NCBI GenBank assembly: GCA_012295275.1
Contig: CM022665.1
Coordinates: 48,003,564 to 48,067,563 of the forward strand
Source of the DNA: Chrysomallon squamiferum
Taxonomy: Eukaryota; Mollusca; Gastropoda; Neomphalida; Peltospiridae
DNA length: 64,000 nt
Direction: 5' to 3'
Part shown: piece after piece, positions 3,625-63,746 of the stretch
How positions within the stretch are numbered: position 1 is the stretch's first letter
Layout of the letters: every line of letters starts with the position of its first letter
Notes under the pieces: model-generated
Seen by the model: only the letters and a program-made list of their open reading frames with translations
What the model was told of the DNA's origin: nothing
Databases searched by the model: none
Program-made: the position numbers and the translations under genes

Positions 3625-6600
3625 GACATTTCGTGTCCATACGGTACAGTGTGCGGTCTGCAGGAGAAATGTGTCTACCCGGAAAAATGTCCGGCCCAGC
3701 CAGCGTGCGTAGGTGAGAAAAATTTCATTTATTAACACTTTCGTTCATTCATTTATTTGTTCATTCATTCAGTCGTGTAAACCTTTTTATATTGTTTAAT
3801 TTATTCGTTCACTAGCTCCACTGAATAATCCTTACATTCGCTGTCCCGTCGGAGAGCCAGTGAGAGACGCTGACGGAAACGTGGTGTATTCTGGGAGGGG
3901 AAGCCCTCCAGACAGATGTCCGGAAGGAACAGAGCCGCTCATTTCTCCCACAGATCGATTTGCAGTCTGCTGCTGGCGTCACAGTGAGAAAAACACATTG
4001 CTTGATGTTATTTAGTTAAAACACGTTGCTTGATGTTATTTAGTTAAAACACATTGCGTGGTGTTATTTAGTTAAAACACATTGCGTGGTGTTATTTAGT
4101 TAAAACACATTGCTTGATGTTATTTAGTTAAAACACACTGCTTGATGTTATTTAGTTAAAACACATTGCTTGATGTTATTTAGTTAAAACACACTGCTTG
4201 ATGTTATTTAGTTAAAACACACTGCTTGATGTTATTTAGTTAAAACACATTGCGAGGTGTTATTTAATTAAAACACATTGCTTGATGTTATTTAGTTAAA
4301 ACACATTGCTTGATGTTATTTAATTAAAACACATTGCTTGATGTTATTTAATTAAAACACATTGCTTGATGTTATTTAATTGCTTGATGTTATCTATATT
4401 TGTACTAGACAAACGTGTAATGATACTTACTATGAATCTATATTTGTACTAGACCAACCTGTAATGATACTTACTATGAATCTATATTTGTACTAGACAA
4501 ACGTGTAATAATACTTACTATGAATCTATATTTGTACTAGACCAACCTGTAATGACACTTACTATGAATCTATATTTGTACTAGACCAACCTGTAACGAT
4601 ACTTACTATGAATCTATATTTGTACTAGACCAACCTGTAATGATACTTACTATGAATCTATATTTGTACTAGACAAACGTGTAATGATACTTACTATGAA
4701 TCTATATTTGTACTAGACAAACGTGTAATGATACTTACTATGAATCTATATTTGTACTAGACAAACGTGTAATGATACTTACTATGAATCTGTATTTGTA
4801 CTAGACCGATCTGTAATGACACTTACTATGAATCTATATTTGTACTAGACAAACCTGTAACGACAAGTTTGGAAACGACGAAACCTGGGATCTGTCCGGT
4901 GTCACGTGGTGTGGGAGACTGCAGAGACTCGTGCAGAAATGACAGCTCGTGTCCAGGACGACTCAAGTGCTGTCAGAATGGGTGTGGAGTCTCGTGTATG
5001 TCTCCCGCGGCCAATCTCACTGACCCCTGCATCTCACACGTGAGAACGTTTCAATTAATAACTTTACTATTTCGAAAGAAATTGAATCTAACTATTTTTA
5101 GAGTCTAACTGTAGTTTAAAATCGCAGAATAACAGTGTTTCTGTGTTAATGCTTCACTTTCTTTTGCTACGTGGTCATCGACAACAAATTTAGGTTGTGT
5201 GGTTCTTTGTTTCTTTACACTTATAGATAGATATATACAGAAAATAACAAATATATTGACCATTATAAAAATTACTCATCTGTTGTTACTGTGGTCAAAT
5301 CAGTTGATATCAACAGCGCATCATGGTTTTTGTAATAAAAATCTGTAAAAGAATTCCTGAAAATCTTCATCTAATTCAACAAATATCTGATGCTTATAAA
5401 AATTAAACAAAGTTACAAATTTAAACTTGTTGTTACCTACGATCTGTAGTTTGATTACGCGGTTTGTTCAAGAGAATACGTACTAACAGTGAGTCTGATG
5501 TTTACAGAATATCAGGTGTAACCCTGGTTATGTGTGTCGTCTGCATCGCGTGCAGTGTGTGACGTCACCGTGTCCCCCTCAACCTAAATGTGTCTGTGAG
5601 TTCTCTTAACTCTTATTTGTCTAATTACGATAATTACAGTAATGTTACTTTATTGAAATCAGTCTGGTTTGTGTGTTTTCCTTTTTAATAGTCTGTAGTT
5701 TAAATATTCTAATTTGTTCTCTATGCCCAGTAAAGTATGAAGAAATGAATATTGTAATAGTTTGTGTTCTTCCCTTTTCGTTGTGGCATTATTTTTGTTA
5801 TATCATACAGTGGCATCCAAAGTAATAACGCAGGCGCACTGTCCTCTGGGTAATCCCGTGCTGGACGTGGATGGACGAGAACTGAACTGTGGGTTTGTGA
5901 TAAATCCAGACCGTTGTCCTGACAACACTTCCTGTAGTGCTTCGCCCGTTGACAAATATGGCGCCTGTTGTTGGATTAATAGTAAATTTAATATTTCATT
6001 TTTATTTTATAAGATGTTTTAATTATTTTTAATAGTCAGTGCATATTAACAGAACAAAATATTCCGAAAAAGAGGAGACAGGAACAATTCATTTAAAAAA
6101 AAACGTCCTTTAAAAAAATTATATTTCCAGTTAAACATATGACGTTGTAAATATTATATTTTTTTACGAAATACTAAACGCGATATTTATAATCAGACAT
6201 AAACAATCTCTATGGAAAATACTGACAACAACAAAAAATATATATATATATTTATTGTTCTGATTATTACTAATATTACTTATTGAATATTATTAATACT
6301 TACTGATATTAATGACAATATTCACGTCGTTGTTTTTAAATTATTAAAAATATAATGAGTTAAGATTTCACACAGACACTCACACACTGCACCCACCCAC
6401 ACCCAGACCAGTGAAACCTGGACGATGTCCCAGCAGGAGGGGTGTGGTCGGAACCTGTGTTGAAATGTGTAACAACGACAGCGGCTGTCCCGGCAGTATG
6501 AAGTGTTGTAACAACGGCTGCGGCCACGTTTGCATGGAACCCGAAAACAGCAGTAATTCCTGCAAGGTTTTCTTTTTTTCTTTCTTTCTTCTTCTTCTTC

Positions 6601-9050
6601 TTCTTGATCATCATCATCTTCGTCGTCGTTGTCGTCGTCTTCATTATTTATTTATTTATTTATTTACTCATTCGTATAAGAATGTGTAGTGAATTCTGAT
6701 AACAGTGTAAAATATATTGTTTTAAAGTACCTATTATTATAATTTTACGTCTATTATGATTTGAATATTTAAAATTATGTTGTTGGTTGTTTTTTGTTTT
6801 TTTGAAGAACGTCGTCTGTCCACGGGGAAGCACGTGTGAACTACGACCACTGCCGTGTCTGATAGCGCCGTGTGCTGTCCAAGCTGTGTGTACGAGTGAG
6901 TTTTCTTGTTACGTCATTACGTCCGTGTGCTAGTTGTTACGTCAATGAGTTTATTGTTACGTCATTACGTCCGTGTGCTAGTTGTTACGTCAATGAGTTA
7001 GTTGTTACGTCATTACGTCCGTGTCCTAGTTGTTACGTCAATGAGTTAGTTGTTACGTCATTATGTCCGTGTACTAGTTGTTACGTCAATGAGTTAGTTG
7101 TTACGTCATTACGTCCGTGTCCTAGTTGTTACGTCAATGAGTTAGTTGTTACGTCAATTGTTACGTCAATGAGTTAGTTGTTACGTCATTACGTCCGTGT
7201 GCTAGTTGTTACGTCATTATGTCCGTGTGCTAGTTGTTACGTCATTACGTCCGTGTGCTATTGTTACGTCATTATGTCCGTGTGCTAGTTGTTACGTCAT
7301 TATGTCCGTGTACTAGTTGTTACGTCAATGAGTTAGTTGTTACGTCATAACGTCCGTGTCCTAGTTGTTACGTCAATGAGTTAGTTGTTACGTCATTACG
7401 TCCGTGTCCTAGTTGTTACGTCAATGAGTTAGTTGTTACGTCATTACGTCCGTGTGCTAGTTGTTACGTCAATGTGTTAGTTGTTTCGTCATTACGTGTT
7501 TTAACTTAGTTATTCCGAGATTTTAAAATAGAAAGATAGTTAGATTCTACTTTTTTTCAAAACAGTTAAATTAACAATTAAAATGTACTCACAGTTATTA
7601 ACTGTTTGAAAGCGTTGTTTTGATTACGTAGATTTATATACAAAATTTCTTGTGTTGTTGTGAAAAGGTGCAAAGATCCCGTGGAGATGTCGGCAGCCGC
7701 CAGTTCGAGGTCACTGCAAAGGGAAGTTTGTCTACTGGTACTACAACGTCGTCACCGTCCGCTGTGAGAAGTTTGTGTTCGGTGGTTGCGGCGGAAACAG
7801 CAACCGATTTCTCACCGCCTCCGAGTGTTACAGTCACTGTGAGTGTTATCTCCGTAACAGTGTTTAGATATGTTACAGTGTGAGTGTTATCTAATGTAAC
7901 AAAGTTTACGTATGTTATAGTGTGAGTGTTTTCTAAAGTAACAAAGTTTACGAATGTTACAGTGTAAGTGATGTAACAGAGTTCATGTATGTTACAGTGT
8001 GGGTGTTGTCTAATGTAACAAAGTTTACGAATGTTACAGTGTGAGTGTTATCTAATGTAACAAAATTCACCTATGTTATTATGTTTTAACAATTACTTTT
8101 AATTAAATAAAAAATATTTGTTTATTGCAGGTAATCCCAGTGCAAGTCCGTGTATGGTAAGACATTTAATAAATATTTATTTAATACATTCTATTGCTGT
8201 CTGTTAGTATACAGATGTTATTTATTTAATACATTCTGTTACTGTCTGTTAGTATACAGATGTTATTTATTTAATACATTCTGTTACTGTCTGTTAGTAT
8301 ACAGATGTTATTTATTTAATACATTCTGTTACTGTCTGTTAGTATACAGATGTTATTTATTTAACACATTCTGTTACTGTCTGTTAGTATACAGATTTTA
8401 TTTATTTAACACATTCTATTGCTGTCTGTTAGTATACAGATGTTATTTATTTAACACATTCTGTTACTGTCTGTTAGTATACAGATGTTATTTATTTAAC
8501 ACATTCTGTTACTGTCTGTTAGTATACAGATGTTATTTATTTAACACATTCTGTTACTGTCTGTTAGTATACAGATGTTATTTATTTAACACATTCTGTT
8601 ACTGTCTTTTTGTATACAGATGTTATTTATTTAACACATTCTATTGCTGTCTGTTAGTATACAGATGTTATTTATTTAATACATTCTGTTACTGTCTTTT
8701 TGTATACAGATGTTATTTATTTAACACATTCTATTACTGTTTGTTACTATACAGATGATATTTCAGATAGAACTGTTTGTAATCCAGCAGTAACATGACA
8801 GTACTTTATAATCATCATTCAGCAGACTACATAGTACTGATACTAGTATAGAATGAAGCAGAAAATTGAGCACAGAGAAAAATTCAAACTTCTAACACAT
8901 CTTGCTTCACGCAAACAACGTAATAAAAAATATATCAATCAAGTCTTTTATCAAATATCTGTACATCATAAATCACATTGTAATAATTCTGTTTCTTTTA
9001 ATATTATGTGCTGTTGGTTTATTTATTTATTCATTCATTCATTTATTCTT

Positions 9051-9085
<35 letters not shown>

Positions 9086-13099: not shown

Positions 13100-16000
13100 A
13101 TGACTGCCAGCGCTGCCCAGCTTTTAAATATTAATCCACCCTTAACAGCTCAAGAAAGGGCTACAAGATCGGTGTTTGGTGGGTGATGCATTTAAAGTTT
13201 GTAATAGTAGTATTATGCTTTATAACCAAATAAAATGTAGTAATAGCAAATTACGCATATGATGAATAACGAAGTTTAGAATTAATACCATTAATTATAG
13301 GATTATTTTTATTAATATAACATTAAATTTAAAATATTGTATTTCGTTAAATCATAAATATAACTATTGTCTTTTTTATTTATTTAAATAATTTCAATGA
13401 TATAAATACATTAAAGCACCATAAAGTCATGTGAAAACACTTATTTCCATTGTCACATTGTGGTTCTGTTTCAGTTGGAAATATTCCCTATGAAGCAACA
13501 GAAGAACAACTGAAGGAAATTTTCACCCAAGCTGGTCCAGTTGTCAGTTTCAGGTTGGTTTTGCATCTTACACACACACAGATATATATAATTTGATGTG
13601 AACAGATAGAAATGTATTTAGATTACAGGCTCTTATAAACATGTCAATATTTCAGGTTGGTGTATGACAGAGAAACAGGCAAACCAAAAGGATATGGCTT
13701 CTGTGAGTACCTGGACTTGGAAACGGCACAGAGTGCTATGCGTAACCTCAACAACCATGACTTCAACGGGCGACCGCTGCGAGTTGGCGTAGCTGCAGGA
13801 GAACAGAGTAAAGATGACATCAAGGGCATGCAGCAAGCTGTGGGCGGAGCACCCATTGAAGTGAGATTCTTTTAAAACAAGAGTGAATCAAATTGTTAAA
13901 CACCAGTTGATTCCTCCAACTTCTGTTTCACGTAGAACACCATTCACAAAATGTTTAATTTCTTTGTATTCACAGAGTCCATATGGAGATCCAATTGAGC
14001 CTGAGAAAGCCCCAGAAGCAATTTCTAAAGCTGTGGCCAGTCTTCCTCCTGAACAGATGTTTGAACTCATGAAACAAATGAAGGTAAACTGCATTTCTGT
14101 TGTTTAAATTATTTTTATATTACATCACAGTTGAATATCTGTGCTTGTTGTTCCTTTTTTGTTGTTTTATTCTCTTTCACAAGGATTCAAAGAATTTGAC
14201 AAATAATTTTAATATAAACTATAATGGATATTTTGAGTAAAAAGAATTAAATAAAAGAAATTTTTAGTTTTTACTGATTAAAACTGATAGTATATTTCAT
14301 TTTGTGAGTTGGTATGAAAATAATAGTATGTTGTGCTGTTGACTTTTTGGTGTAAACTGGTGACTATATAATAAAATAAAGTGTAGTTAAGTGTTCTGTG
14401 TAAGTTATTGTGTTAACATGTATTTCAGCTGTGTTAACGTGTATTACAGCTGTGTTAACGTGTATTTCAGCTGTGTATTCAGAACAACCCGACGGAGGCG
14501 CGCAGCATGCTGTTACAGAATCCACAGTTGGCGTACGCTCTGCTTCAGGCTCAGATTGTCATGAAAATTGTCGATCCACAAGTTGCACTGGTCAGTAACT
14601 ACACAGAAAATGTTTAATTTAAATTTCTGTACCAATTCTCTTCACAGCAGTGGTTAGTTAAAAATAGATTCCTGATTTTATCTGAAATCAGTCTTGAATA
14701 AACTCTCAGAAAAAATGTATCAGCTCAGTTAATTATTTAGAACATTTTAAGATACTATATGAAAATATTTTACAGTCAGTGACTAATTCACAAAACAAGT
14801 ACTTACTGGAACTGAAAATGTAAAAAATATTAACCATTCATTGTAGAGTTTTAATGGAGTCATTCTATTGACTTGTTACATTTGTTAATGATAGTTTTAC
14901 ATCATTCCATTGTCTGATGGTTGTAGTTAATTATGTCTGCTGGAGTTATTGTTGTGATTTTGTTCAACAGGCCATGTTGTATCGAGATCCAAACCAGATT
15001 CCCACCTCAACACCTGTTTCTAATGGAGCTGCTCATGTGGTACGTATAAACAACACTCTGCTGTTACACTTTAAATAATACTGTACCTTTATAATACATT
15101 AAACCAGACAGTGCCATTATTATACATTAAACAATACAGTGCCATTATTATATATTAAACAAGACAGTGCCAAATTTGTATATTAAACAATGCAGTATTA
15201 TTATAAATTAAACATTGCAGTATCATTATTATACATTAAACAATACTGTACCTTTATTATATATTAAACAATACAGTGCCATTATTGTATGTTAAACAAT
15301 ACACTTTTATTATGACATTATTTAGATGTTCAGTAATACAGTACAGCCATAATAAAACTAACAAACACTGTGTTTCTATGGTTACAATATTTTTCAGCTT
15401 GTGAACAACACAGTTATGTTATTTTATTACTGCACTGTTTAAACAAATTTATTTCTGTGTTTATTTTTAAAATTTTAAAAAAAAAAGACAGTTCATGAAT
15501 TACAGTAAAATAGTCCTGTGTTAATATGAACTACTTCATTATAATTAAATTATCTGTATGTTTCCACACAGAACTTTACACTGATAAGTCATGTAAAAAC
15601 ACTAAACTTGTACTTCAAGAATTTGCCTTAATGCTAAACATTCTCTTAGTAAAGAATTTAATCAGGGAGTTAAGATAAGATATTTTGTAAAACTGTTTTT
15701 AATGATTTTTGTATTTATAATCTCTATCTGTAGATATGTAGATATGTAGATAGTACATACCAGTATATGTTATATTGTGTTTTAAACAGACACCCACTTC
15801 CTCATCACCTATGGACATCAGTCAGTCTCAGGGCATGATACCTCCAGGTAATTAAATAATAACTACATACTTTTAATACTTTTAAACAAGTAAAATATTT
15901 ATCATTAAATTTGTTTGCTAGGTGTATTTAATGTTGAGTAAATTATAACTTTTTCACTTTTAATGACATCTTATTTTATATTTCAGTATTATGACAGAGG

Positions 16001-18299
16001 TGGATTCTGCATATTATTGTATATTTTAATATTATACAGAGGTGTAATACTGTATATTATTGTATGTTATAATATTACAATAGAGATGTAAAACTGTATT
16101 ATATATATCTTAGTATAATAGAGATGCAGTGCTGTACATTACTTTATATTTTAATGTTAAAAGAAAAGTGTAATGCTGTATATTGTTCTGTATTGTAATA
16201 TTATACAGAGATGTAATACTGTATATTGTTGTATGTTTTAATATACAGTGTATATTTTAACTATATTATATATCTTAGAGTAATAGAGATGCAGTGCTGT
16301 ACATTATTTTATATTTTAGTGTTAAAAGAGTGGTGCAATGCTGTATTTTGTAATATTGTAATAGAGATTTAATTTAACGCAGTGTCATGGTTTCGTGTTA
16401 TTTTCTACAGGAGTGCGTGGTCCAGCCATGATGAGTGCCCCTCCCCGGATGTCTGGACCTGGGGGAGACATTCTGCCTGGACCTCAAGGCTTAATGCAGG
16501 GAGGACCACAAGGACCTATACAAGGTAAACAGTTGTTACACAGATATTTACTTCACACATTAAAACTGAAATGCTCGTTTCACATCTCTATATAAATTAT
16601 GTTTAATATACAAATATTAATTTCAAATATCAGCATAAAACATAAACATTCACTTCACGTATCTGTTTAAGTTATACTTTTGAAACAAAAAACATTTACT
16701 TTTTAGAAACAGTAGCTTATAGATATTTCTAAAATATTATGTTTGAGTGGAAAAACAGGATTTTTTATTTATAGCACTAACTATAATTTTTATTTATAGC
16801 TAAACCAGACTTTTTATTTATAATATTTCACTGTACTTTGTGTCTGTACAGGAAGACCAGACTTTTTATTTATAATATTTCACTGTACTTTGTGTCTGTA
16901 CAGGACGACCAGACTTTTTATTTATAATATTTCACTGTACTTTGTGTCTGTGCAGGACGACCAGACTTTTTATTTATAATATTTCACTGTACTTTGTGTC
17001 TGTGCAGGACGACCAGACTTTTTATTTATAATATTTCACTGTACTTTGTGTCTGTGCAGGACGACCAGACTTTTTATTTATAATATTTCACTGTACTTTG
17101 TGTCTGTACAGGAAGACCAGACTTTTTATTTATAATATTTCACTGTACTTTGTGTCTGTGCAGGACGACCAGACTTTTTATTTATAATATTTCACTGTAC
17201 TTTGTGTCTGTACAGGAAGACCAGACTTTTTATTTATAATATTTCACTGTACTTTGTGTCTGTGCAGGACGACCAGACTTTTTATTTATAATATTTCACT
17301 GTACTTTGTATTTGTCCAGGACGACCAGACTTACCTGGATCTTTCCATGGTCAGTCTGGACCAGCAAGAGCAGACTCACGAGATCCTCGTCTTGTTGCTG
17401 ACCCTCGGTCAATTCCCAGACCAGGTCCTTCAGCTGTTCCCATCAGAGGACCAGGAACACCTGCTCATCTCGCTGGTCCCGGTCCTGTTCCTGCTGCACA
17501 GGTCAGTCACCCTTAGTTATAATTAGTAACATCAATCACCCTTAGTTATAATTAGTTACACTTAATTATATGAGTTACATAGTTACATTAGTAAAATTAT
17601 AGTTGGTTATGTCAGTCATATTTATTGCATTTTTTTGGACAATTTATTGCACTTTTATAATTATCTAAATCACTTTTCATTAACACATTTTATTATTATT
17701 GATATTTGAGTTTCATTAAACAATAATTTTGTTAACTAAAAATCCTCATGTAAATACTAATACACTGGTTTTTTTGGTTATTTGTTCAAGTTGATCATTG
17801 TCTGTACTAAACAAATGTGTTGTGTGTTTCAGCTGGGTGTTCTCGGACAGCTAGGTAACCTAGGCAACCTGAACGCACTAAATCAGCTGGGGCTGACCGG
17901 TGGTCTACAGTTGTCGGGCATAGGTGGACAGGTGCCTTCCATGCCAGGAGGTACTCAAATATCCGCACAGGATCAGGAGAAGGTGAGTATTCTCTGTTCA
18001 AGTAATAACAACAATGTCTGTGTTTTATACATTTTAATGTTCTGTTAATGTTTGAAAAAAAAATACTATTCTCTGAATTTAAAATGAACGTATTGTTCTG
18101 TTAATGTGACATTCAGTGTTTGAGAAATAACATTCAGTGTGTGATGTGGAAAGTAAAGTCAGGTGAAATCTGTGTTTTGCAGGCTGCTCTCATCATGCAA
18201 GTTCTGCAGCTGACAGATCAGCAGATTGCAATGTTACCTCCAGACCAGCGACAGAGCATCCTCATTCTCAAAGAGCAGATCTCACAGAGTGGAAAGTAG
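13100..18299 (+). CDS. CSTF2: Cleavage stimulation factor subunit 2 (CstF-64)
   Basis: Eleven exons: 13100-13178, 13475-13553, 13656-13860, 13976-14083, 14471-14590, 14971-15039, 15790-15847, 16411-16524, 17320-17501, 17833-17982 and 18183-18299. They total 1281 nt, or 426 residues. CstF-64 binds the GU-rich downstream element of pre-mRNAs and works with CSTF1/CSTF3 in nuclear 3'-end cleavage and polyadenylation. The RRM spans about residues 24-98, with RNP2 VFVGNI at 25-30 and RNP1 KGYGFCEY at 64-71. The hinge follows (SPYG..., then [14 protein letters not shown], then [15 protein letters not shown]), then a Pro/Gly-rich linker, then the conserved C-terminal helical domain ([14 protein letters not shown] ... 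[11 protein letters not shown]). All match the vertebrate protein closely. It is shorter than human CSTF2 (577 residues) and lacks the MEARA-type repeats of the linker. The start codon has A at -3, and the N-terminus is alignable up to RSVFVGN. Confidence 0.97.
14409..14470 (+). repeat. Three 21-bp copies of the CSTF2 exon 5 acceptor
   Basis: TGTTAACGTGTATTTCAG followed by CTGTGT occurs with AG ends at about 14428, 14449 and 14470; only the last joins the coding exon (CTGTGTATTCAG). The upstream copies run into TAA two codons later. Confidence 0.85.
15080..15310 (+). repeat. Imperfect ~30-bp repeat in CSTF2 intron 6
   Basis: Units of ATTAAACAATACAGTGCCAT with TATTATAT spacers, about seven copies. 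Confidence 0.75.
15985..16350 (+). repeat. Diverged AT-rich repeat in CSTF2 intron 7
   Basis: Recurrent TGTAATACTGTATATTGTTG and AATATTATACAGAGATG pieces, degenerate, about six to seven copies. Confidence 0.65.
16800..17319 (+). repeat. 52-bp minisatellite with nine decoy acceptors before CSTF2 exon 9
   Basis: The unit contains TTTGTGTCTGTGCAG followed by GACGACCAGACTT. AG ends fall at 16850, 16902, 16954, 17006, 17058, 17110, 17162, 17214 and 17266, and the real acceptor at 17319 keeps the register to within one base. The first 13 nt of exon 9 are present in every unit (GAAGACC in some). Since 52 is not a multiple of three, decoys lie in rotating frames. Confidence 0.95.
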
Positions 18300-19520
18300 A
18301 CATCAGTTTACCATCTCACAGTGGAGAGCTTGTTTACCATCTCACCGTGAAGAGCTCATTTACCATCTCACAGTGGAGAGCTCACTTACCATCTCACAGT
18401 GAAGAGCTCTTTTACCATCTCACAGTGGAGAGCTCACTTACCATCTCACAGAATGGAAAACAGATAAAACGTCTCAGTGGTCAATATTTTTGTTAAATAT
18501 TGTCTCACATTATTGGTCCTTTTAAATATATCATCTGAGTTATAATCATCACAAATCTTTTTATATTAAAAATGTTTACAAAAGAGACTGCCTATTAAAT
18601 CACCATTTCTTCTTTCTTTTTTTTAAAGATGTTTGTGAAAAAGAAAACAAATATATGCTTGTACATATTTCCTTGTGTTTTAAACATTTGTTCCTATTAT
18701 ATTACATCCAACAATGAATGACTGAAAGAATAGTAAACAATTATTATGTATTTGTTAACTGAGAAATTATTTTATTAATCTCAGTGTCAGGATTAACATA
18801 TAAAAATGTTTTGAATTAAAGAATTACAGTGTGGATAGGAAATGAAGTTAAATGTGTGTACAAATATGATTTGTAGTACTATATCAGCTGACATACAGTC
18901 TTTCTTCTGTTGTCAACTTTATTTTATTTTTTATTTTTCCCCAAGATGAGTTTGTCATCTTGTAAGAGGTTTTTCTTTGTATAAATATGGTTTAAACAGA
19001 TTAAGATTTTGGTGTTTAAATGTTTTCTGTCTAATAAAGTAATTAAATTTCATTTTGTTTCTTATTTTTATCCCATTAAAATTCTGTTTTCCTTCTCATC
19101 ATGTTGCTTTTAGTTACTATGTATATAAATTTTCAACACACACACACACACATTAATAAAGGGCATAATGGCATGATCATTTCTATATGTTTTACTTTTT
19201 TAACCGATTTATAAATGTTTGAGGTGTCAGGTAATGAGATAAAGGATTTGCTATGACTGACTTATTTTAGTTTGTTTAAATTAGTAATGGATATTTTATA
19301 AGTGTCTGTACACAGGAAATTAAAAAACAAACTTCAAGTACTAAACAGGAGCACAGAGAATTGTCTGAGGCAATTGTTGCACCAATGAAAACCGGAGTAC
19401 ACCATCTTTTTATTTATTTATTTATTTATTTATCTATTTATTTTATAGTGTATAAAAACAAATAAATGATAATTAAAAACCATGAATAATGAAATCCACA
19501 AAATGTTTTTTCTTCTTAAT

Positions 19521-28528: not shown

Positions 28529-31500
28529 ATGGCATACACATTTGTTTCATCGAAGCAACTGAAAGGACTTCTTAATGATGTTGAAAGGGTTCACAAGAAA
28601 GATATCAATGATTACACTGCAGGACATCTAAATGATATGCACCTGCATCAGCATGCAGCACAGATCAACCGTAAATCATGGGCTAGTGCTGCAGCCAGCC
28701 ACCTGACCAGGAAACCAGCAGTAGTCGAGAAACCAGCTGAAATCAGCTACAGAGACAGTCCCATGAAAGAAGCACTCTTCCAGTTTAGTCTGGGCACAGC
28801 AGGGAGTGTCCCATACCCCTCACCACAGGGCAAGACGAGTCGCTCTCCGACAAAACGGTGGGCAAAGTTTAAAGATGGAAGAAGCTCAACGACTTCAGAC
28901 AAGTCTGTGTATTCAGAAATTGAAGACGAAGTTTTGGTGGAGGAGCTTCAGAATGATAAGATGATGATTCCTACTGATCGGTCTAAATGCATTGATGCAC
29001 ACAAATCTGATCTGAGTCCGCGATTGTTTGTGAAGAAAAGCTCTGTGAGACACATGTTCATTCCGATGCAGTCGTTTGGAATCACCAGACTTGACCAGTA
29101 TCAGAACATGAAGGATTTTGAAAGCTGCATTCTCAGAACCAAAGACACATCAGAAAAAAATATCTTGTTAGGAATGAAAAAAGTTCAGCACCATGAGAAG
29201 AAGCTTAAACAGGTAACTGATAGTTATTTAACTGATTTGAAAATAGAGAGAGAGAGAGTCACATCACTTTACATACAAATGTAAAGGCAAGAAGTAAAAA
29301 TATTACAAAACATATAATCTGCTCACAGTCCTCTTACCAGAAGTAAATGTGTAACTTAATCATACTACATAATTAAAACAATCAACTTTTTCTGATTAAG
29401 TTGTAATTTTCACATACAAAATCTCTTTTGGATGACTGTTAATTTTTTTTTTTTTGAGGACTGCATATGTGAAAAAACAATATAAAAAAATTAATGTGAT
29501 GAAGTTATTTTATTTTACAGCAGCTGACTATGTATGATCTACATGACACAGGTCCTAACTTCCACAAACTGCAAGTTTACAGTGACATCTTCGAAGATGT
29601 TATTCAAGAATCCCCCACCTTTTCCTACATTCTGGGCTGTATCAAGGTTTGTTTTGTGATATGAAAATTCTCTGCAAAAAAAGGTGTATTACGGTTCATA
29701 TTACTGGCATTCATTTAACATGTAAACATCTTCTGAAATGTTTGTTTTTAAAGAAATCTCGGAAATACAGGAATATTTCTGAAGACATGTCAGTTCAGTT
29801 GTCATATCTTTAAATGCTTAATTACAGTGACTGGCAACAGAATCTGTTAGCTTTTTGTGATCGCATTCCTACACAAATTTTTTAACTTGATGTTTGTGAA
29901 ACTTTAATGTTTTAATGTCAGACAATGTTACATTTTATTAAATGGTAACACATGTCAGACAATGTTAGATTTTATTAAATGGTAACACATGTCAGACAAT
30001 GTTAGATTTTATTAAATGGTAACACATGTCAGCCAGTTCTCTGATAATGACTTACAGGTGGAGTATGACAACTACATCACCAAACTTCTGGACAGCCAGA
30101 CGACACAACATCATCTTCTACAGGAGCAGGTGGAGCAGATGGCATCGCGTGGCACGTCACGTCCCAAAGACCTCAAGTTCATCATCGACAAACTGAAAAG
30201 TCTCGAAACAATCGCACTGGACGAGCTCCATAAAACACTGCGTAAAACACATTTTTATATGCATTGTTTGTCACATGACTTGTAATTTAATACAGCTCTG
30301 ATGACAGTGCTACACATTTTTATATTTGTGTTTGCTCATGTTAGGGTGTTGATGGTAATGAATGTTTGTGTTAAAATAATTGTAGTAGACATTAAGAATT
30401 GAAACTAATGGATGTTTGTGTTTCAAGTTGATAATAACAGATGGTTGTGTTACAAGTTGATAATAACAGATGTTTATGTTACACATGTTGATAATAATGT
30501 GTGTTTATGATACATGTTAATAAAAGGGATTATGCACTGATAATAACATGCTGATGTTTCAAGAATTGATAATAACATGTTACAAGTGCTGATATTAACA
30601 TGTTGATGTTACAAATACTAATTGTAACATAATACTGTCATACATATTGATAGTAACATGTTCATGTTACAGATATTGATAGTTATGTATGTTACTGTTA
30701 CAGGTTACGTGAACAACTTAAACAAGAATCAGAATGGCTGGCAAACTTCACTGAACAAGGTGAGAGTTTTCTACTAAACATACACTTTATTTCAGAGACA
30801 GTGCAGTCTAGCACTGAGAGATGAGTAGATGAAGTGTATGTTTGTATTTCAGAGTCAGTGCAGTCTAGCACTGTTTGATGAGTAGATGAAGTGTATGTAT
30901 TTGAGTCAGTGCAGTCTAGCACTGTGAGATTAGTAGATGAAGTGTATGTTTGTATTACAAAGACAGTGCAGTCTAGCACTGAGATTAGTAGATGAAGTGT
31001 ATGTTTGTATTACAAAGACAGTGCAGTCTAGCACTGAGATTAGTAGATGAAGTGTGTGTTTGTATTTCAGAGTCAGCGCAGTCTAGCACTGTGAGACAAG
31101 TAGATGAAATGTATGTTTGTATTTCAAAGACAGTGCAGTCTAGCACTGTGAGATTAGTAGATGAAGTGTATGTATTTGAGAGTCAGCGCAGTCTAGCACT
31201 GTGAGACAAGTAGATGAAGTGTGTGTATTTCAGAGTCAGTGCAGTCTAGCACTGTGAGATTAGTAGATGAAGTGTGTGTTTGTATTTCAGAGTCAGCGCA
31301 GTCTAGCACTGTGAGACAAGTAGATGAAGTGTGTGTTTGTATTTCAGAGTCAAACACAGTCTAGCACTGTGAGATTAACTAGATGAAGTGTATGTTTGTA
31401 TTTCATGTGTCATATAGTCTAGCACTGAGATCAGTAGATGAAGTGTATGTTTGTATTTCAGAGTCAGCGCAGTCTAGCACTGTGAGACAAGTAGATGAAG

Positions 31501-54618: not shown

Positions 54619-57600
54619 AAACACACTTGACACAAACATATTTTAATATTACGTTTTCGTTTTTTAATTTCGTAATTACACAAATGAGACGATATTAACC
54701 ATTTGTTTCAATAATAACAAATAGAATATGAGGTTCGTAACCATGACGAATACTGACTAACGTGTGTTTTTACATCTGACCATTGTCAGCTTATTTTAGT
54801 TATCTACTTACGTAATAATTCATCTCTGTATCAATATTGACTTAATTGTCATTTTATTCTATGACGTATCTATTATTGCGAGTTGAAAGTCAATAACAGC
54901 TCACGAGAAACCCAGTGTCAGTTCAATGTGCATGCGTGGACAAACGTCAGAAGTCAAAGAGAGGCAAGCTGTGTCGCTGAAAACAAACATCGACAACTGC
55001 ACATGTGTCAGACAAAACGCGATATTTAATATCAATTATGTTGACTCAAGGTTCAGCTGTACACGGCTATTGTTGTGACAGAAATACAGTGTATCAAAAC
55101 ATTTCTACCTTTCTTACACGTTTTCTACCAGTTAGGATGTTTGATACGAGAAATTCATTTTCTGGTCTTTTTTGATTTTCTTATTTTATCATTACGTGAG
55201 AAAAACAGCTTGCAGACGTATTTCAATTACACGTACAACTGGCTCTGTGCTGAATTATTAGAATCCTCTCCCAGAAAAGCAACCCCCTCCCCCTGAATAT
55301 CTCTAAGATTTCAGTGTTAAACGACGCTTACTTCTGTTAAAATATTATGGATTTATGGATCAACTGGATTCAGTATCTGTTTCACTGACCCCAGTCAGCA
55401 ATATTGATCGCTTCACAAATAATAACGTAATTATAGGAGGAATGCCGCCATTTTGCTCGCTAACAACGCCAATTCTATAAAGTGGCCTGGTCTATGATGG
55501 TTTCGTTACGTCACAGCGCGCGATCAATTGATGGCCAATCTTCAAATACCGTTCCTAATTGATACTGACTGAATAGCCAATTGACCACAGAAACTAATTA
55601 ATGGCGTCGCGATTAATGAAAAAGCCAGCGCAGCTGATTCTGAGTGCGTGACGTCGATCACTTGCAACATGCTGCTGTCGACTTCACGTCCACACAACAA
55701 CTGTCACAGCTTTGTGTGTTGTCGTTCATAAATAAATATGATTTACTCTTCAGAACATCAATACTAAACTACACGACACGTATCCAAATCAATGATTAAA
55801 ATTAACAACTTAAGATATGCTAAGTCGAATAACATGCATTAAAATGAATAATACAATACATAACATACACTATGATTAACAGTTTTATATACACTAAAAT
55901 TAATAATACAATACATAATATACAATAGAATTAACAATTTCACAAGCACTAAAATAAATAACACATTATGCATTACAGTTAACAACTTCAGATAGACTAA
56001 GGTGAATAACACAATACATAACATTTACCATAATTAACAATTTTACATACACTAAACTGAATGACACATTTTACACTAAAATTAACAGTATAACATACAC
56101 TAAAATTAACAGTATAACATACAATAAAATTAATATTTTAACATACACTAAAAGCATTAACTAGTCTAACATACAATTGTTAAAAAATTCACATACACAA
56201 GATTGTATGACAAATACTAAACAGATGACTGACTGATAATTGATTGTAAAAATTCATACACATGACGTAGTACACAAGATTGTATAACAAATACTATGCA
56301 GATGACGTAACACAGACAAGATTGTATGACGTACTATACACATGACGTAGTACACAAGATTGTATGACAAATACTATACACATCACATAATTACTCATAG
56401 TTTGAGGAATAAATGAGATTTCGTTTGAAGACAATATATTAAAATAATTTCTTGTGTTATATTTGATTCCAGTATATATTCATTCATTTTACAATTTTAA
56501 TCTCACTACATTGTTGATGTTGTTGTTTATTTTTTATTTATTTATTTATTTATTTGGTCTTTCTGTCCTTTGAGAAAATTTCCAGTTGCTAGAACTCGAA
56601 CGAATTCTGACTCATCATCATCATCATCATCATTATTATTATTTTTTATTTTTTATTTCATTTTTTTCTTTATTTTTTTTTTTTTTTTTTTGGTCGATAC
56701 TGGAAGTCACCCGCAAAATATCGATTTTTCCCAAATGTCCGTCGTTTTTGTTATCAGTTGTATTCAAACAGTTTCTTCAGTAACTAGTTCTTATTTTCCA
56801 TTTCATTGTGCGTTTTCCCGATCAAACCCTTGCCCAACAATTGACTTTTATCAAAAATAGAAGATTAATGTTTTACTGTCTATTCAAAAATAAAATATCT
56901 CTAGTCTGAAGCGTTTCTTCATCAGTTTTTCTATTTCAATTTATTACACAAAAATCATACAGAGACTTCAAACGTCAGTAGCTGATATTTTATATAAAAA
57001 CACACAGTTTACTTCATATAGCAACAAAACTAGGCAAAAACAAGGTATCAGCAAGCTGTAATCGACAAATTTATTCAATATTCCTGACTTTTTTACTGCA
57101 TATTTATTGCAAGTCGAATGTAAAATTTTATTTATTGTAATGTATCTTTTATTTATTATGTCACGTAATAATGGCGTAGTTATATTAAAACGTGTATGAA
57201 ATATGTTTTCAAAGTACGTAACTCTCTCTCTCTGTAAGTGTGTGTCTGTATGTGTGTGTGAGTGTCATGTGTACACTCGCGCATGCACACACATACACAT
57301 TCCTGGAAATGGGATTTATAAAGATAATTAATATTATGATGAATATATATATATAAATCTTTTTGTTTTTCTTTTTTTTTTGAAGTATGAAAACGGGACT
57401 TAATAAAGATAATTAATATGATGAATGATATATATATATTTTATTTTTTTTTTATTTTTAAACGGGACTTAATAAAAATAATTAATATGATGAATATATA
57501 TATATATATATTATTTTAATTTTTTTTTTTTTTGAAGTATGGAAACGGGACCTAATAAAGATAATTAATATTATGATGAATATATAATTTTTTTGAAGTA

Positions 57601-57637
57601 TGGAAACGGGACTTAATAAAGATAATTAATATTATGA

Positions 57638-57694
<57 letters not shown>

Positions 57695-60600
57695 GAAGTA
57701 TGGAAACTGGACGTTCAACAAAGGCAGGATTATGAACGCGGCTTTCAAGGAGGCTCTCAAACTCTACGACTTCCAGTGCATCGTCTTCCACGACGTCGAC
57801 CTCGTGCCCGAGGACGACCGCAACATGTACACGTGTCCGTGGCAGCCACGACACATGTCAGTAGCCATCGACGAGCACGACTACAGGTAAGTCAGTGAGA
57901 GAACGAACATCAGCGAAAGATAAATTTGTTGTTTTTCTGTACCGATGGAGAAAGGCTCCCATCTATACTTAACATCCCGTCCCCTGTTACTCAAACCACA
58001 CCCCGTCCCCCATCTGTAAAGCAACATCCCACCTCCTTTTTTTTTTTTAATCAATCAACCCCCCACCCCTCTGTATCAAACAGCACCCCCCCGTCCCTAT
58101 CTATCAAGCGAGATCTAGTCACCTATGTCTAAATCAACATGCCGTTCTTTGTCTGTGAACCAGACATCACAACGTACTAGTAATTCACGTCTGTTTCTTT
58201 AATTAGAAGAAGAAGACGAAAAAACATATATATTAACTGTCCGCTTTCCCTGTGATAATGAAGATATTAATAGCTGACCCAGAAGAGCGCTGTAAACAGG
58301 TGGCGCTCGTTAGCACAGAAAAGCCTGCAGGGTGAAGTCTAACTAACGAACAGCTCCGAGTGCCTTCTTAACTTTGTCTAATCTCTGCTGCTCGCGCTGT
58401 CACGTGACCAGCAGCGCTGGAAACATGGTAGTAAGAATACGGTGTTAAAAAAAAGAGAAAAAAAGACGTCAACGTGGACGAGGTTATAAAACCGTTTTGC
58501 AGGCGACATTTATAGAGAACTGGGATTATATTTCTCTGTAATTTTGACGGAACAGCTGTTGTCATTAGTTACTGCTGGTGATCACTGAGATAAATGACTG
58601 AGACGCGTTTTTTTATATATATTTTTTTTTTATATATATTCTATTTTTTTGTACTGATCACGTGATCTCTGTCCGATTTAAATTAACAACTGGACACGTG
58701 ACTAACGATGTTTTCGATTAGTTGGTCGAGTCATGATAATTTATTTTCAGAACGCATCTTTAATAACGTGTTTATGTGAAATCAATGCTTCACTTTTATC
58801 TTCAGTGACGTCTTTATGTTTCCATAAATAAATTGTTTTATTAAAGTAAAACTGAATAAAAACAGTAATCTCTCTCGACTCGGAAAAAATTGTTTCAATA
58901 TAAAAAAAATTATTATTATTACTTTTATTTTTTTATTTTTAATTTAAATCAAAATTTAAACAAAAAATCATTATTTTCCGAAAATTGACGTTTATAGGCA
59001 AGTTCAGTAAATAAATTCGTTATTTTACTTATAGTAAAATAAAAACACACACACACATACATATACACACACTCACACACACACTCACAGACACACACAC
59101 ACACACACACACACAGACACACACACAGAGACACACAACACACACACAGAGACACACACACACATAAACACACATATGGCATACTACTTGGAGAAGTGTT
59201 CAGTATAATGATTTCACTGAAGTATGACATACTAAATGTAAATACTGTAGATTCTAGATGTTTTATGTGACATTGTTTCTACTGTAGACTCTAGATGTTT
59301 TATGTGACATTGTTTCCACTGTTGGTTGTAGATGCATTTCGTTGTAGATGTTTTTTCTACATTGTTGTCTGTAGGTTTTTTATGTGACATTGTTTCTACT
59401 GTTGTCTGTAGATGTTTTATGTGACATTGTTTCCACTGCAGGTTGAAGTACGACATACTCGTTGTAGATGTTTTATGTTACATTGTTTCTACTGTAGACT
59501 GTAAATGTTTTATGTGACATTGTTTCTACTGTAGATGTTTTATGTTACATTGTTTCCACTGCAGGTTGAAGTACGACATACTCGTTGTAGATGTTTTATG
59601 TTACATTGTTTCTACTGTAGACTGTAGATGTTTTATGTGACATTGTTTCTACTGTTGTCTGTAGATGTTTTATGTGACATTGTTTCCACTGCAGGTTGAA
59701 GTACGACATACTTGTTGTAGATGTTTTATGTGTTTTGTTTTACATTGTTTCTACTGTAGATGTTTTATGTGACATTGTTTCCACTGCAGGTTGAAGTACG
59801 ACATACTCGTTGTAGATGTTTTATGTTACATTGTTTCTACTGTAGACTGTAGATGTTTTATGTGACATTGTTTCTACTGTTGTCTGTAGATGTTATATGT
59901 GACATTGTTTCCACTGCAGGTTGAAGTACGACATACTCGTTGTAGATGTTTTATGTTACATTGTTTCTACTGTAGACTGTAGATGTTTTATGTGACATTG
60001 TTTCTACTGTTGTCTGTAGATGTTATATGTGACATTGTTTCCACTGCAGGTTGAAGTACGACATACTCGTTGTAGATGTTTTATGTTACATTGTTTCTAC
60101 TGTAGACTGTAGATGTTTTATGTGACATTGTTTCTACTGTTGTCTGTAGATGTTTTATGTGACATTGTTTCCACTGCAGGTTGAAGTACGACATACTCGT
60201 TGTAGATGTTTTATGTTACATTGTTTCTACTGTAGACTGTAGATGTTTTATGTGACATTGTTTCTACTGTTGTCTGTAGATGTTTTATGTGACATTGTTT
60301 CCACTGCAGGTTGAAGTACGACATACTCGTTGTAGATGTTTTATGTTACATTGTTTCTACTGTAGACTGTAGATGTTTTATGTGACATTGTTTCTACGTT
60401 GTAGATGTTTTGTTTTATGTGACATTGTTTCCACTGCAGGTTGAAGTACGACATACTCGTTGTAGATGTTTTATGTTACATTGTTTCTACTGTAGACTGT
60501 AGATGTTTTATGTGACATTGTTTCTACTGTTGTCTGTAGATGTTTTATGTTACATTGTTTCCACTGCAGGTTGAAGTACGACATACTCGTTGTAGATGTT

Positions 60601-63600
60601 TTATGTGACATTGTTTCTACTGTTGTCTGTAGATGTTTTATGTGACATTGTTTCCACTGCAGGTTGAAGTACGACATACTCGTTGTAGATGTTTTATGTG
60701 ACATTGTTTCTACTGTAGACTGTAGATGTTTTACGACATTGTTTCTACTGTTGTTGTAGATGTTTTATGTGACATTGTTTCTACTTTCTACTGTAGATAC
60801 TGTTGTAGATGTTTTATGTTACATTGTTTCCACTGTAGACTTGAATGTTTTATGTGACATTGCTTCTACTGTTGTCTGTAGATGTTTTATGTGACATTGT
60901 TTCCACTGCAGGTTGAAGTACGACATACTCGTTGTAGATGTTTTATGTTACATTGTTTCTACTGTAGACTGTAGATGTTTTATGTGACATTGTTTCTACT
61001 GTTGTCTGTAGATGTTGAAGTGACGACATACTGCAGTTGAAGATGTTTTATGTTGTAGACTGTAGATGTTTTATGTGACATTGTTTCCACTGCAGGTTGA
61101 AGTACGACATACTCGTTGTAGATGTTTTATGTGACATTGTTTCCACTGCAGGTTGAAGTACGACATACTCGTTGTAGATGTTTTATGTTACATTGTTTCC
61201 ACTGCAGGTTGAAGTACGACATACTCGTTGGAGGAGTTCTAAACATGCGAGTTGAACACTATCAGCGAGTGAACGGCTACTCAAACATGTACTGGGGGTG
61301 GGGGGCTGAAGACGACGACATGGCGTACAGGTGAGTCACTAGGGTGTTCTGAGCAGAACTAACGTGTCAACATATCTTCTTTTTCTTTTATTCAGAGAGC
61401 GTATATGTTGAATAAAAATGTAAGATAGAACTGTTCTGTTTTATTTTTTATTTTTATTATTATTCATAGAATGTGTTTGTTGAGTAAAAAGTTCATAATA
61501 TTGTTCTAAAAGTATTAACTCTAAGATCATACAATAATTCAGGAATTTGAAAGTGTTCTGTAACTAATTATCAATAACTGACCATTTCAATTTATTCTTT
61601 TATTATATAACAAAAAATGATAACTAATCACCTAAAATATATATTGTATTCTGTGAGTTGTTGACTAGTTTACATGTTCATGCCAGTGTTGTTTTCTCCG
61701 CACTTTACAGAATTCTTCACGTGGGTTTGAAAATTAGTCGGCCGCCATCAAATCTCGCGAGATACAAAATGATAAAACACCAGAAACGTCGCCCTGCAGC
61801 GTGGATCACTAGGTAACTCTTCTCTTCAATTATACACTAGTTTCAGTAACTCTTCTGTTCAATTATACACTGGTTTCAGTAACTCTTCTGTTCAATTATA
61901 CACTGGTTTCAGTAACTCTTCTGTTCAATTATACACTAGTTTCAATAACTCTTCTCTTCAATTATACACTAGTTTCAGTAACTCTTCTGTTCAATTATAC
62001 ACTGGTTTCAGTAACTCTTCTGTTCAATTATACACTAGTTTCAGTAACTCTTCTGTTCAACTATACACTAGTTTCAGTAACTCTTCTGTTCAATTATACA
62101 CTGGTTTCATACACTGTTCAATTATACACTAGTTTCAATAACTCTTCTGTTCAATTATACACTAGTTTCAGTAACTCTTCTGTTCAATTATACACTAGTT
62201 TCAGTAACTCTTCTGTTCAATTATACACTGGTTTCAGTAACTCTTCTGTTCAATTATACACTGGTTTCAGTAACTCTTCTGTTCAATTATACACTGGTTT
62301 CAGTAACTCTTCTGTTCAATTATACACTAGTTTCAATAACTCTTCTGTTCAATTATACACTAGTTTCAGTAACTCTTCTGTTCAATTATACACTAGTTTC
62401 AATAACTCTTCTGTTCAATTATACACTAGTTTCAGTAACTATTTTTAATTATACTCTAGTTTCAATAACTCTTCTTTTTAAGTATACTCTAGTTTCGTTT
62501 CTTTTTAGTATACTTTTTTTTTAAATTATACTCTTTCAGTAACTCTTCTTTTAAATTATACTCGTTTCAGTAACTCTTCTTTTAAATTATACTCTAGTTT
62601 CAGTAACTCTTCTTTTTAATTATACTCTAGTTTCAGTAACTCTTCTTTTTAATTATACTCTAGTTTCAGTAACTATTCTTTTTAATTATACTGTATTTAA
62701 TAACTCATTTTGTTAATTATTCTGTAGTTTAAATAATTAATTTGTTAAATATTCAGCAGTTTCAATAATTAATTTTGTCAAATATTCTGCAGTTTCAATA
62801 ATTAATTTTGTTAAATAGTCTGTAGTTCAAATAACTCATTTTGCTAAATATTCTGCTGTTTCAACATTTTGATAAATATATTCTGAATTTCAGTAATTAA
62901 TTTTACAAATATGTGATTATATTCTCGGGCGAGTCGGTTTAGGTTCAGTTTACAGTTATAAATAATAAGGCTAAGTAAATAACAATCCACATTAAAAAAA
63001 ACACACGTTTATATCACATGTCAAACTGAAGATATAAAGTGTCATTTTTTACTGAAGCGATATGAGCAGTAATGTAGTTGTATATATGATATGTTATTTA
63101 AAGTGTTTAATGTACATATTATATAAATCACTTGAATTATACAGTATTTAATATATATGGTATATATCCTGTATTTAATGTATATGGTATATATACTTTA
63201 TTTAATGTATATGGTATATATTCTATATTTAATTTATTCGGTATATACACTTTATTTAATGTATATGGTATATATTCTGTATTTAATGTATGGTACATAC
63301 ATTGTATCTAATGTATATTGTATATGTACTTTATTTAATGTATATGGTATATGTACTGTATGTAATGTATATGGTATATATACTGTATTTAAAGTATATG
63401 GTATATATTCTGTATTTAACGTGTATGGTATATATAATTTATTTAATGTATATGGTATATATACTGTATTTAATGTATACGGTATAATATACTTTGTTTA
63501 ATGTATATGGTATATGTACTTTATTTAATGTATATGGTATATATTCTGTATTTAATGTGTATGGTATATATACTTTGTTTAATGTATATGCTATATGTTG

Positions 63601-63746
63601 TATGATGTATTTACAGGTCTAAACTTCTGCACACTGCGGTGAAACGTTACAAACTGGACGGACTGAACAGTGTCAAATACAAACTGATTTTCATTCACGA
63701 GGAAATTCTCTTTACACACATCATGGTGGACGTGGGCAAACCTTGA
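43071..63746 (+). CDS. Beta-1,4-galactosyltransferase-family (GT7) enzyme, predicted beta-1,4-GalNAc transferase
   Basis: Exons: 1b 43071-43482, then 51134-51378, 57699-57886, 61208-61330, 61711-61812 and 63617-63746. The total is 1200 nt, or 399 residues (402 with exon 1a). It is a Golgi type II membrane enzyme that transfers a UDP-sugar to terminal GlcNAc. The anchor is at residues 13-34, followed by a Ser/Asn-rich stem. The catalytic part has [27 protein letters not shown], the metal-binding DVD (251-253), [19 protein letters not shown] (311-319) and MIKH (Met343, His346), equivalent to bovine B4GALT1 Asp254, Met344 and His347. The Cys pair corresponding to C247/C266 is kept. Leu288 stands at the position of bovine Tyr289, and Ala315 replaces the second Gly of [15 protein letters not shown] and HIMVDVGKP close the domain. 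Invertebrate beta4GalNAcTs have Ile at the same position, so GalNAc transfer is the likelier activity. Confidence 0.93.
43483..44868. other. Start of GT7 intron 1
   Basis: A CT tract occupies about 43527-43575. A ~100-bp segment with GAAACTGTTTATGTTTAATG ... CGCTACTTAACTG occurs twice, starting at about 43600 and 43704. AT/GT-rich tracts lie at 44540-44760. No exon was seen. Confidence 0.7.
44869..46735 (+). repeat. 39-bp minisatellite, about 47 copies, open on both strands
   Basis: The unit contains GGTGTGAGTTTTAGTTTGTA and TATTGTTAGAATGTACAAA. The 39-bp period keeps frames open on + (374 and 280 codons) and - (326 and 259 codons), with one break near 45885 where a unit is interrupted. It lies wholly in GT7 intron 1 and has no recognisable domain. 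Confidence 0.95.
46736..48650. other. GT7 intron 1, simple repeats and one copy of a dispersed duplication
   Basis: A 20-bp unit TGATTTAAGTGTCTGAATGA is present three times (46805-46864). AAT/ATT tracts lie at 47680-47960 and 48523-48575. The piece at about 47964-48300 matches 49587-50215 (separate entry). Confidence 0.7.
47964..48300. repeat. Duplicated segment, copy 1
   Basis: Starts TAACCTCATTTAACCATATT and continues through GAGATACAAATATATCGTTC, TTATAACCTRCTACGTTATG and GATTATGTCATGT to about 48300. The same order of blocks occurs at 49587-50215. This copy lacks the 239-bp insert found in copy 2. Confidence 0.8.
48660..49175 (+). repeat. 54-bp minisatellite, about 9 copies
   Basis: The unit is GGGTTATTGCTGTTACAAAC plus AGGTGATTACTTTTACTGTT plus ATGTTACAAATAGC. 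It is nearly identical between copies, with a 1-bp deletion at about 48993 that shifts the open frame. Confidence 0.95.
49587..50215. repeat. Duplicated segment, copy 2, with 239-bp insert
   Basis: Homologous to 47964-48300 in block order. Bases 49722-49960 are absent from copy 1, and TGAACAC stands at the left edge (49722) and near the right edge (49944) of this extra piece. The second copy also has a short extra repeat of TTATAACCTAYTRCGTTATG. Confidence 0.78.
50216..51133. other. End of GT7 intron 1
   Basis: Moderately complex sequence at 50230-50500 with several ACGT-containing motifs, then AT-rich DNA and a GT tract (50820-50893). Ends at the acceptor CGTCTTTCAG. Confidence 0.6.
51535..52010 (+). 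repeat. 55-bp minisatellite in GT7 intron 2
   Basis: About eight units of AAGTGTTACTATTTTTTCAG plus AAATAACTGTAAACATCCAC plus TTTGTAAAAAAG. Some copies have TTTTTTCAG, others TTTTTTCAC. Confidence 0.93.
52050..52335 (+). repeat. ~44-bp minisatellite in GT7 intron 2
   Basis: About seven units of AACTCACGTTTGTAAAGTGT plus GTCTAAAGTTAGTTTTAAAA. Confidence 0.92.
52336..55380. other. GT7 intron 2, simple-sequence tracts
   Basis: A GT tract at 52503-52551, an interrupted GT/CTGT tract at 53141-53332 (opens artefact frames on both strands), ATTTAATACATGATTTAATA repeats, a TAATGTAATATAATG tract (53930-54135), ATTACTAATTACAATTA repeats (54190-54470) and a CA tract (about 54588-54612). No coding exon recognised. 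Confidence 0.7.
55390..55700. promoter_or_regulatory. Non-repetitive, motif-rich island in GT7 intron 2 (candidate cis-regulatory element)
   Basis: In contrast to flanking repeats this stretch is complex and less AT-rich. It contains homeodomain-like cores (CTAATTAATGG, GATTAATGA, GTAATTATAGG), a GATCAATTGATGG palindrome-like site and TGACGTCGATC. It has no open frame of note. The enhancer role is inferred from composition only. Confidence 0.25.
55800..57300. other. Remaining GT7 intron 2
   Basis: Degenerate units of AACATACACTAAAATTAACA (55830-56180), then ACACAAGATTGTATGACAAA units (56190-56390). ATC/ATT and T-rich tracts lie around 56610-56692. Little else is discernible. Confidence 0.6.
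57300..57698 (+). repeat. Repeat carrying the acceptor and start of GT7 exon 3
   Basis: About four to five units of TGAAGTATGGAAACGGGACY plus TAATAAAGATAATTAATATT plus an AT/T tract. The real exon starts at 57699 with TATGGAAACTGGACGTTC after TTTTGAAG. The upstream copies read GAAG followed by TATGRAAACGGGAC. Confidence 0.85.
57887..59229. other. First part of GT7 intron 3
   Basis: C-rich sequence with CCCCGTCCC-type pieces (57975-58105), a complex stretch at 58250-58590, T-rich DNA and a CA tract at 59045-59172 that opens artefact frames. Confidence 0.6.
58399..58408. promoter_or_regulatory. Palindromic E-box GTCACGTGAC
   Basis: A perfect 10-bp palindrome identical to the CLEAR/USF-type E-box, nested in a larger imperfect palindrome (CTGCTG ... 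CAGCAG, GCGCT ... AGCGC). It lies inside intron 3. A role as a bHLH-factor site is inferred. Confidence 0.35.
59230..61207 (+). repeat. Large minisatellite with 14 decoy copies of the GT7 exon 4 start
   Basis: Units of about 60-130 bp are built from GTAGATGTTTTATGTGACAT, TGTTTCTACTGTAGACT and TTTCCACTGCAG followed by GTTGAAGTACGACATACTCG. The acceptor with the first 23 coding bases recurs 14 times before the real exon at 61208; in the copies GTTG is followed by TAGATG, in the real exon by GAGGAG. Confidence 0.95.
61813..62690 (+). repeat. 33-bp minisatellite starting at the GT7 exon 5 donor
   Basis: About 19 close copies, then diverged ones, of AACTCTTCTGTTCAATTATA plus CACTAGTTTCAGT. The exon-intron junction CACTAG/GTAACTCTTCT is itself a near copy of the unit (TTTCAGTAACTCTTCT), so each unit holds a weakened donor. 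Confidence 0.9.
63130..63612 (+). repeat. ~27-bp TTTAATGTATATGGTATATA array before the last GT7 exon
   Basis: About 17 imperfect units of TTTAATGTATATGGTATATA plus TACTGTA, ending just before the acceptor TGTATTTACAG at 63616. Confidence 0.9.

Follow-up and report, generated by a model that had tools for sequence, protein, structure and literature searches.

Intronic minisatellites copying exon edges in Chrysomallon squamiferum: probable mirages in a gastropod mollusc

In lancelets, several genes, among them Adh3, the globin genes BflGb6 and BflGb9, TnC and PGBD5, contain the structures known as mirages, tandem repeats with units of 10-160 bp that span the exon-intron boundary at both the 5' and the 3' end of introns, many but not all of them including the AG or GT of the splice site (PMC3087553; TnC and PGBD5 from PMC3902484). 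Reverse transcription-polymerase chain reaction (RT-PCR) suggests that the lancelet genes are spliced regularly despite their mirages, and a model of intron gain has been based on them, in which the exonic part of a repeat turns into a real exon (PMC3087553). Here we describe tandem arrays of the same anatomy in five genes carried by a stretch of 64,000 nucleotides from the gastropod Chrysomallon squamiferum (assembly GCA_012295275.1, contig CM022665.1, positions 48,003,564 to 48,067,563 of the forward strand), the whole of which is called the window in what follows.

As in lancelets, the units found in the snail span the exon-intron boundary and repeat exon bases inside the intron, which occurs at 11 of the 74 junctions of the window and at two acceptors (6909 and 9452) of a calpain gene located elsewhere in the genome. 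Both 5' and 3' boundaries are affected (four donors and seven acceptors in the window), and AG or GT is present in many of the snail copies, not in all. The snail differs in being a gastropod mollusc, in gathering its 11 junctions within a single 64-kb window and in having as many as 14 decoy acceptors within an array. Moreover, regular splicing of the lancelet genes is suggested by RT-PCR, and copy-number polymorphism or instability is a further mark of mirages, whereas the snail arrays are known here from the sequence of one assembly. Units at the edge of a mirage cluster would also escape homogenisation; in the snail, the identity of units near the exon dips in WAP-gene exon 3 and CSTF2 exon 9, but not in C6orf118-like exon 5 and calpain 6909. 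As judged from their anatomy, they are probably mirages, that is, a known kind of structure in another phylum. The first-pass annotation of this DNA had supposed that a genome-wide habit of this sort would be new; as a kind, such arrays are not new, the same anatomy being described in the lancelet papers (PMC3087553, PMC3902484). No mirage outside lancelets was recognised in a literature search in which most items were judged without full text and which took in few subscription journals.

Three other systems can be compared with these arrays. In the Rogers model, discussed in PMC3087553, introns are gained by tandem genomic duplication of a segment containing AG and GT; the snail duplications also contain splice signals, but no new intron is seen in the arrays. 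In human genes of segmental duplications, expansions of minisatellites with units of about 30 bp change the exon-intron structure, and cryptic splice sites have been proposed to take part (PMC2812944). These genes share with the snail the presence of tandem repeats with splice-site potential, although half of the variable human repeats fall within the coding sequence of recent paralogs (PMC2812944), whereas in the snail the exon is kept and the copies are intronic. Finally, the TSSK1-like gene of abalone, another gastropod, has a polymorphic 27-bp minisatellite in its intron 3, which is length-variable, and the available part of that report does not state whether a splice site is included in the unit (PMC6905558).

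Copies across splice junctions

A repeat finder placed 39 arrays in the introns of the window. The five genes of the window, all on the plus strand and with models built by hand, are a gene of WAP/Kunitz/lustrin type (hereafter the WAP gene), CSTF2, MPC1, a gene with a TSNAXIP1_N domain, which we take to be C6orf118-like, and GT7, a beta-1,4-galactosyltransferase (B4GALT).

When copies had to align without gaps and to carry at least 4 exon bases, junction spans were found at 7 of 38 acceptors and at none of 37 donors (75 junctions). A gapped test on 74 junctions (37 acceptors and 37 donors, with 296 null comparisons per junction type) gave 11 spans, each above all 296 null values of its type. 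Seven of these are the same acceptors as in the ungapped test, those of exons 3 of the WAP gene, 5 and 9 of CSTF2, 5 and 6 of the C6orf118-like gene, and 3 and 4 of GT7, which score 55-102 (null maximum 28); the others are the donors of WAP exons 7 and 8, MPC1 exon 5 and GT7 exon 5, which score 30-50 (null maximum 26). Seven further junctions, with scores of 13-19 (null p 0.057-0.149), were left uncounted. The junction-spanning copies themselves are thus beyond chance (Table 1). The donor cases are weaker than the acceptor cases; the alignments at WAP 7, WAP 8 and GT7 5 require 4-5-base gaps, located either in the exonic portion or on or close to the junction, and that at MPC1 5 is gap-free. 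All ten arrays that the first-pass annotation had named as including a splice site were recovered above the null, and the WAP exon 7 donor, absent from its list, makes the eleventh. At least 28 of the 39 intronic arrays have no junction span.

Table 1. Arrays that copy exon edges in the window (window coordinates; exon bases are the maximum number copied)
Feature	Position	Strand	Array	Exon bases	Copies and remarks
WAP-gene exon 3 acceptor (exon start 4849)	4392..4860	+	44-bp	17	10 upstream exon-start copies, AG in all
WAP-gene exon 7 donor (exon end 6895)	6896..7497	+	48/28-bp, reaching over donor		10 intron-start copies by short 6-base match, GT in 0/10
Kunitz exon donor (WAP-gene exon 8, end 7838)	7838..8078	+	42-bp		GT in 3/3 copies
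CSTF2 exon 5 acceptor (exon start 14471)	14409..14476	+	21-bp x 3	6	
CSTF2 exon 9 acceptor (exon start 17320)	16804..17332	+	52-bp x 10	13	AG in 9/9 copies
CSTF2 coding end and 3' untranslated region (3'UTR)	18279..18480	+	26-bp		last coding bases copied, 16/17 identical
MPC1 exon 5 donor (exon end 23251)	23252..23395	+	52-bp repeat		GT in 1/1; weakest counted case; outside the list of 39 arrays
C6orf118-like exon 5 acceptor (exon start 31519)	30788..31543	+	57-bp	25	AG in 7/11
C6orf118-like exon 6 acceptor (exon start 32409)	32001..32447	+	124-bp	39	
GT7 exon 3 acceptor (exon start 57699)	57391..57712	+	61/69-bp	14	AG in 3/4
GT7 exon 4 acceptor (exon start 61208)	59243..61230	+	37/56/130-bp	23	14 AG decoys, acceptor score equal to real site
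GT7 exon 5 donor (exon end 61812)	61813..62730	+	33-bp, starting at donor		GT in 18/23 intron-start copies

Beyond the window, 18 stretches of 10 kb were taken at round-number genome positions, some of them with up to 2,500 N. The exon finder used on them, trained on the window, recovered exactly 26 of its 33 internal exons on the plus strand at a threshold of 20, and also made 31 predictions on the minus strand. Since it gave many false calls, the genes of four stretches were accepted, three of them by domain match (calpain, a GH116/GBA2-like gene and alpha-amylase) and the fourth as presumably RNF10; junctions from the stretches L005, L002 and L019 were taken on coding score alone. Altogether, the scores of 80 sampled junctions (71 + 9) were set against the null values of the window, and three of them were counted, all in the calpain gene (L008, reverse strand). 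Acceptors 6909 (score 74) and 9452 (score 50) have arrays of 37 and 36 bp, respectively, that copy calpain coding sequence, and donor 6402 has one diverged downstream copy (two-copy, score 29), which is not a repeat-finder array. The phenomenon extends to a gene elsewhere in the genome, with two clear acceptor cases on another contig and in a random stretch.

The sampled junctions of the GBA2-like, amylase and RNF10 genes gave no counted span. Two candidates were dropped, the AT-rich GBA2-like donor 855, whose score of 27 is one above the donor null maximum of the window, and the RNF10 acceptor 6906, whose score of 28 equals the acceptor null maximum. The GBA2-like gene also has a GC-AG intron (L014, reverse strand, 1970). 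In the next 10 kb of the calpain gene (L020), a 22-bp array begins 41 bases after donor 2144 (reverse strand, 2186-2589) and holds 22 donor-like sites, 9 of them equal to or better than the real donor in score, with three perfect CAG/GTGAGT decoys; donor 2144 failed the spanning test.

Splice signals in the copies

The seven acceptor arrays of the window contain 56 exon-start copies, of which 48 keep AG. Counted in this way, the two calpain arrays keep it in 2/7 and 0/4, the latter having been counted in a register other than that of the alignment, in which AG is in place. A set of 45 decoy acceptors resembling the real one was obtained from six of the seven window arrays, and 34 of them, including all 14 of GT7 exon 4, equal or exceed the real site in score. 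Most decoys are, then, not disabled, and 43 of the 45 would bring a stop into the exon. Since the decoys are mostly intact, yet most of them would bring in a stop, the exon-proximal copy is probably the one used in splicing. Exon definition is the textbook reason for such a choice of the proximal site.

It had been stated in the first-pass annotation that the real site is always the array member next to the exon. This agrees with the reading frame, no internal stop being present in any of the five models (with the end of C6orf118-like exon 3 at 30281), and with the alignment of B4GALT to a solved relative, in which the joins of exons 2/3, 3/4 and 4/5 are gap-free, a gap of two residues precedes the exon 5/6 join by a few positions, and no array-coded insertion is found. 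The MPC1 alignment stops at the exon 5/6 join and is uninformative on the exon 5 donor. At C6orf118-like exon 5, the next copy upstream is also usable in frame. The two decoys that leave the exon open are this one, at 31462, an upstream copy of the exon 5 acceptor that would add 57 nucleotides in frame with an acceptor score equal to that of the modelled site, and CSTF2 17216, which shifts the frame.

It might be thought that some arrays are functional in splicing, as alternative acceptors, recursive sites or in-frame microexons. The retention of AG and the open copy at 31462 speak for this, as do the donor-like sites of the calpain 22-bp array and a peculiarity of the array before C6orf118-like exon 6. 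The latter contains three 18-nucleotide in-frame copies, at 32037, 32161 and 32285 (TEVQKL, TEVQKL and IEVQKL), flanked by AG and by a donor-like GTAAAA with a score of 6.1 (real donors have a median of 8.1 and a 10th percentile of 5.8), so that they are possible microexons. Nevertheless, the stops that nearly all scored decoys would introduce, and the absence of GT from the WAP exon 7 copies, argue the other way, and we hold a role in splicing to be very unlikely.

Probable local origin of the arrays and the weight of exon edges

Local repeats cover 42.6% of the introns of the window, 16.1% of its non-genic DNA and 2.3% of its exons. Arrays with a period of at least 10 account for 29.6% of the window, against 1.1-23.2% in 17 of the 18 random stretches, and the window is array-rich relative to the stretches sampled. 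The remaining stretch, L018 (C9, about 5.0 Mb), is 98% tandem satellite with a GC content of 44.5%, in a genome that is otherwise AT-rich.

Taking into account that splice signals are carried by the repeats and that many introns are affected, they could be regarded as copies of a mobile element or of an introner. However, their units match the local exon, and the one unit searched genome-wide, the 130-bp unit of GT7 exon 4, has at least 18 matches in the 404.6-Mb genome (22 contigs), all of them within its own array. Besides, 15 of 18 window arrays had no off-locus copies in the rest of the window or in 19 stretches from elsewhere in the genome; the remaining three gave short matches or the array's own continuation. 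An origin by mobile elements is, on this evidence, barely credible. Nor is it at all probable that the arrays are an artefact of long-read assembly and polishing. The likely source assembly was built from nanopore reads, and one lancelet mirage was wrongly assembled in a genome draft (PMC3087553); yet that same mirage proved real in trace data (PMC3087553), the snail copies diverge from one another and carry local exon bases, and the arrays measure 0.1-2 kb, less than the minimum read length of 3 kb given for the likely source assembly.

To compare the number of spans with that expected from chance placement, each founding unit was placed uniformly in its intron or across the intron edge. For the window, this founder model predicts 3.54 spans at acceptors and the same number at donors (standard deviation 1.67), 7.1 in sum; the 39 arrays gave 7 and 3, 10 in sum (P 0.18). 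An added sample of 27 introns from four genes elsewhere contains 9 arrays, with 0.37 spans expected per side; 4 of these introns are not random, because L020 was picked after the calpain gene already looked interesting. For the window and the four genes together, repeat-finder arrays give 12 spans against 7.8 expected (P 0.10), the donors contributing 3 against 3.9. The window was itself chosen for its striking look and is array-rich. The counts can be accommodated by random birth together with selection, an excess at acceptors being possible, and a special process acting at exon edges is not required and is unproven.

We consider it likely, with fair assurance, that the arrays are mirages in the sense of local minisatellites that arose from a founding unit lying, by chance, across an exon-intron boundary. 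In this genome, non-coding DNA would often give birth to tandem duplications, with founders presumably placed at random. A duplication inside an exon would be removed by selection, and one spanning the boundary would be tolerated because the exon-adjacent copy retains an intact splice site and exon. The intronic copies would then drift and expand, perhaps by unequal exchange, and splicing would be expected at the exon-proximal copy, likely through exon definition, even though AG or GT survives in the majority of intronic copies. The first-pass annotation had suggested that arrays expand outward from exon edges while selection on the exon keeps the founder copy. Selection on the exon still accounts most simply for the retention of the exon-adjacent copy; it is the special edge process that the summed count in the window fails to bear out.

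Several observations weigh against the random founding of these minisatellites. Acceptors taken separately show 9 spans against 3.9 expected in the window and the four genes (P 0.019), and when the two donor copies outside the repeat-finder arrays (MPC1 5 and calpain 6402) are included, the total rises to 14 against 7.8 (P 0.029). Five more arrays begin 1-24 bases past a donor without spanning it (WAP 2, 9 and 10; CSTF2 6 and 9), and in a few arrays (calpain 6909, the GT7 5 donor and the acceptor side of MPC1 5) the copies decay with growing distance from the exon, a possible sign that the array grows at its exon end. The copy at 31462, as good an acceptor as the modelled one, belongs with these points. 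Together, the acceptor excess, the arrays starting close behind donors and the cases of decay would suit a process that preferentially starts or extends arrays at exon edges, perhaps in connection with transcription or with splicing at acceptors, and it is the acceptor excess that keeps this idea alive.

The enrichment at exon edges, for which statistics had been called for, is nonetheless weak in the like-for-like total (P 0.10) and missing among the donors (3 against 3.9), and the window was picked as striking and is rich in arrays. Furthermore, the end of the CSTF2 coding sequence, without any splice site, has been copied into the 3'UTR array (score 29 against a maximum of 20 in 373 null comparisons), and since those last coding bases recur there, a splice site is dispensable for such copying. 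Judged by eye, 17 exon-side arrays showed no general gradient of decay with distance from the exon. An exon-edge process is an unlikely, though not negligible, source of the arrays.

The genes concerned and the meaning of the arrays

Among the best 120 of 2,520 matches to the CSTF2 product, a Haliotis sequence ranks first, with other molluscs next. The WAP gene (3625-11281) encodes, besides WAP, Kunitz and lustrin cysteine-rich domains, and because of these its product may be a shell-matrix-type protein. In MPC1 the frame is kept by an inferred microexon of 4 nucleotides, TACT, at 21049-21052, with which the first 102 residues align gap-free to MPC1 in solved structures. Upstream of the galactosyltransferase exons, two open exons (40387-40810 and 43071-43482), each with a hydrophobic stretch, may be a gene remnant or serve as alternative first exons.

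A bolder reading is that an acceptor-biased process repeatedly duplicates 3' splice sites together with the start of the exon. Introns would then lengthen at the exon edge, and some copies, such as the one at 31462 and the three of 18 nucleotides, would become alternative sites or microexons. We give this reading only a slender chance, but, if it is true, new exons and introns would be arising continually in a mollusc. If the rate seen here holds genome-wide, mirages would be no lancelet oddity; they would be expected generally wherever minisatellites arise in intron-rich genomes. Each array is, in addition, a natural experiment, in which up to fifteen near-identical acceptors stand in a row, most of them protein-wrecking if used, and as such the arrays offer a test of proximal-site choice, of exon definition and of the tandem-duplication route to new introns.

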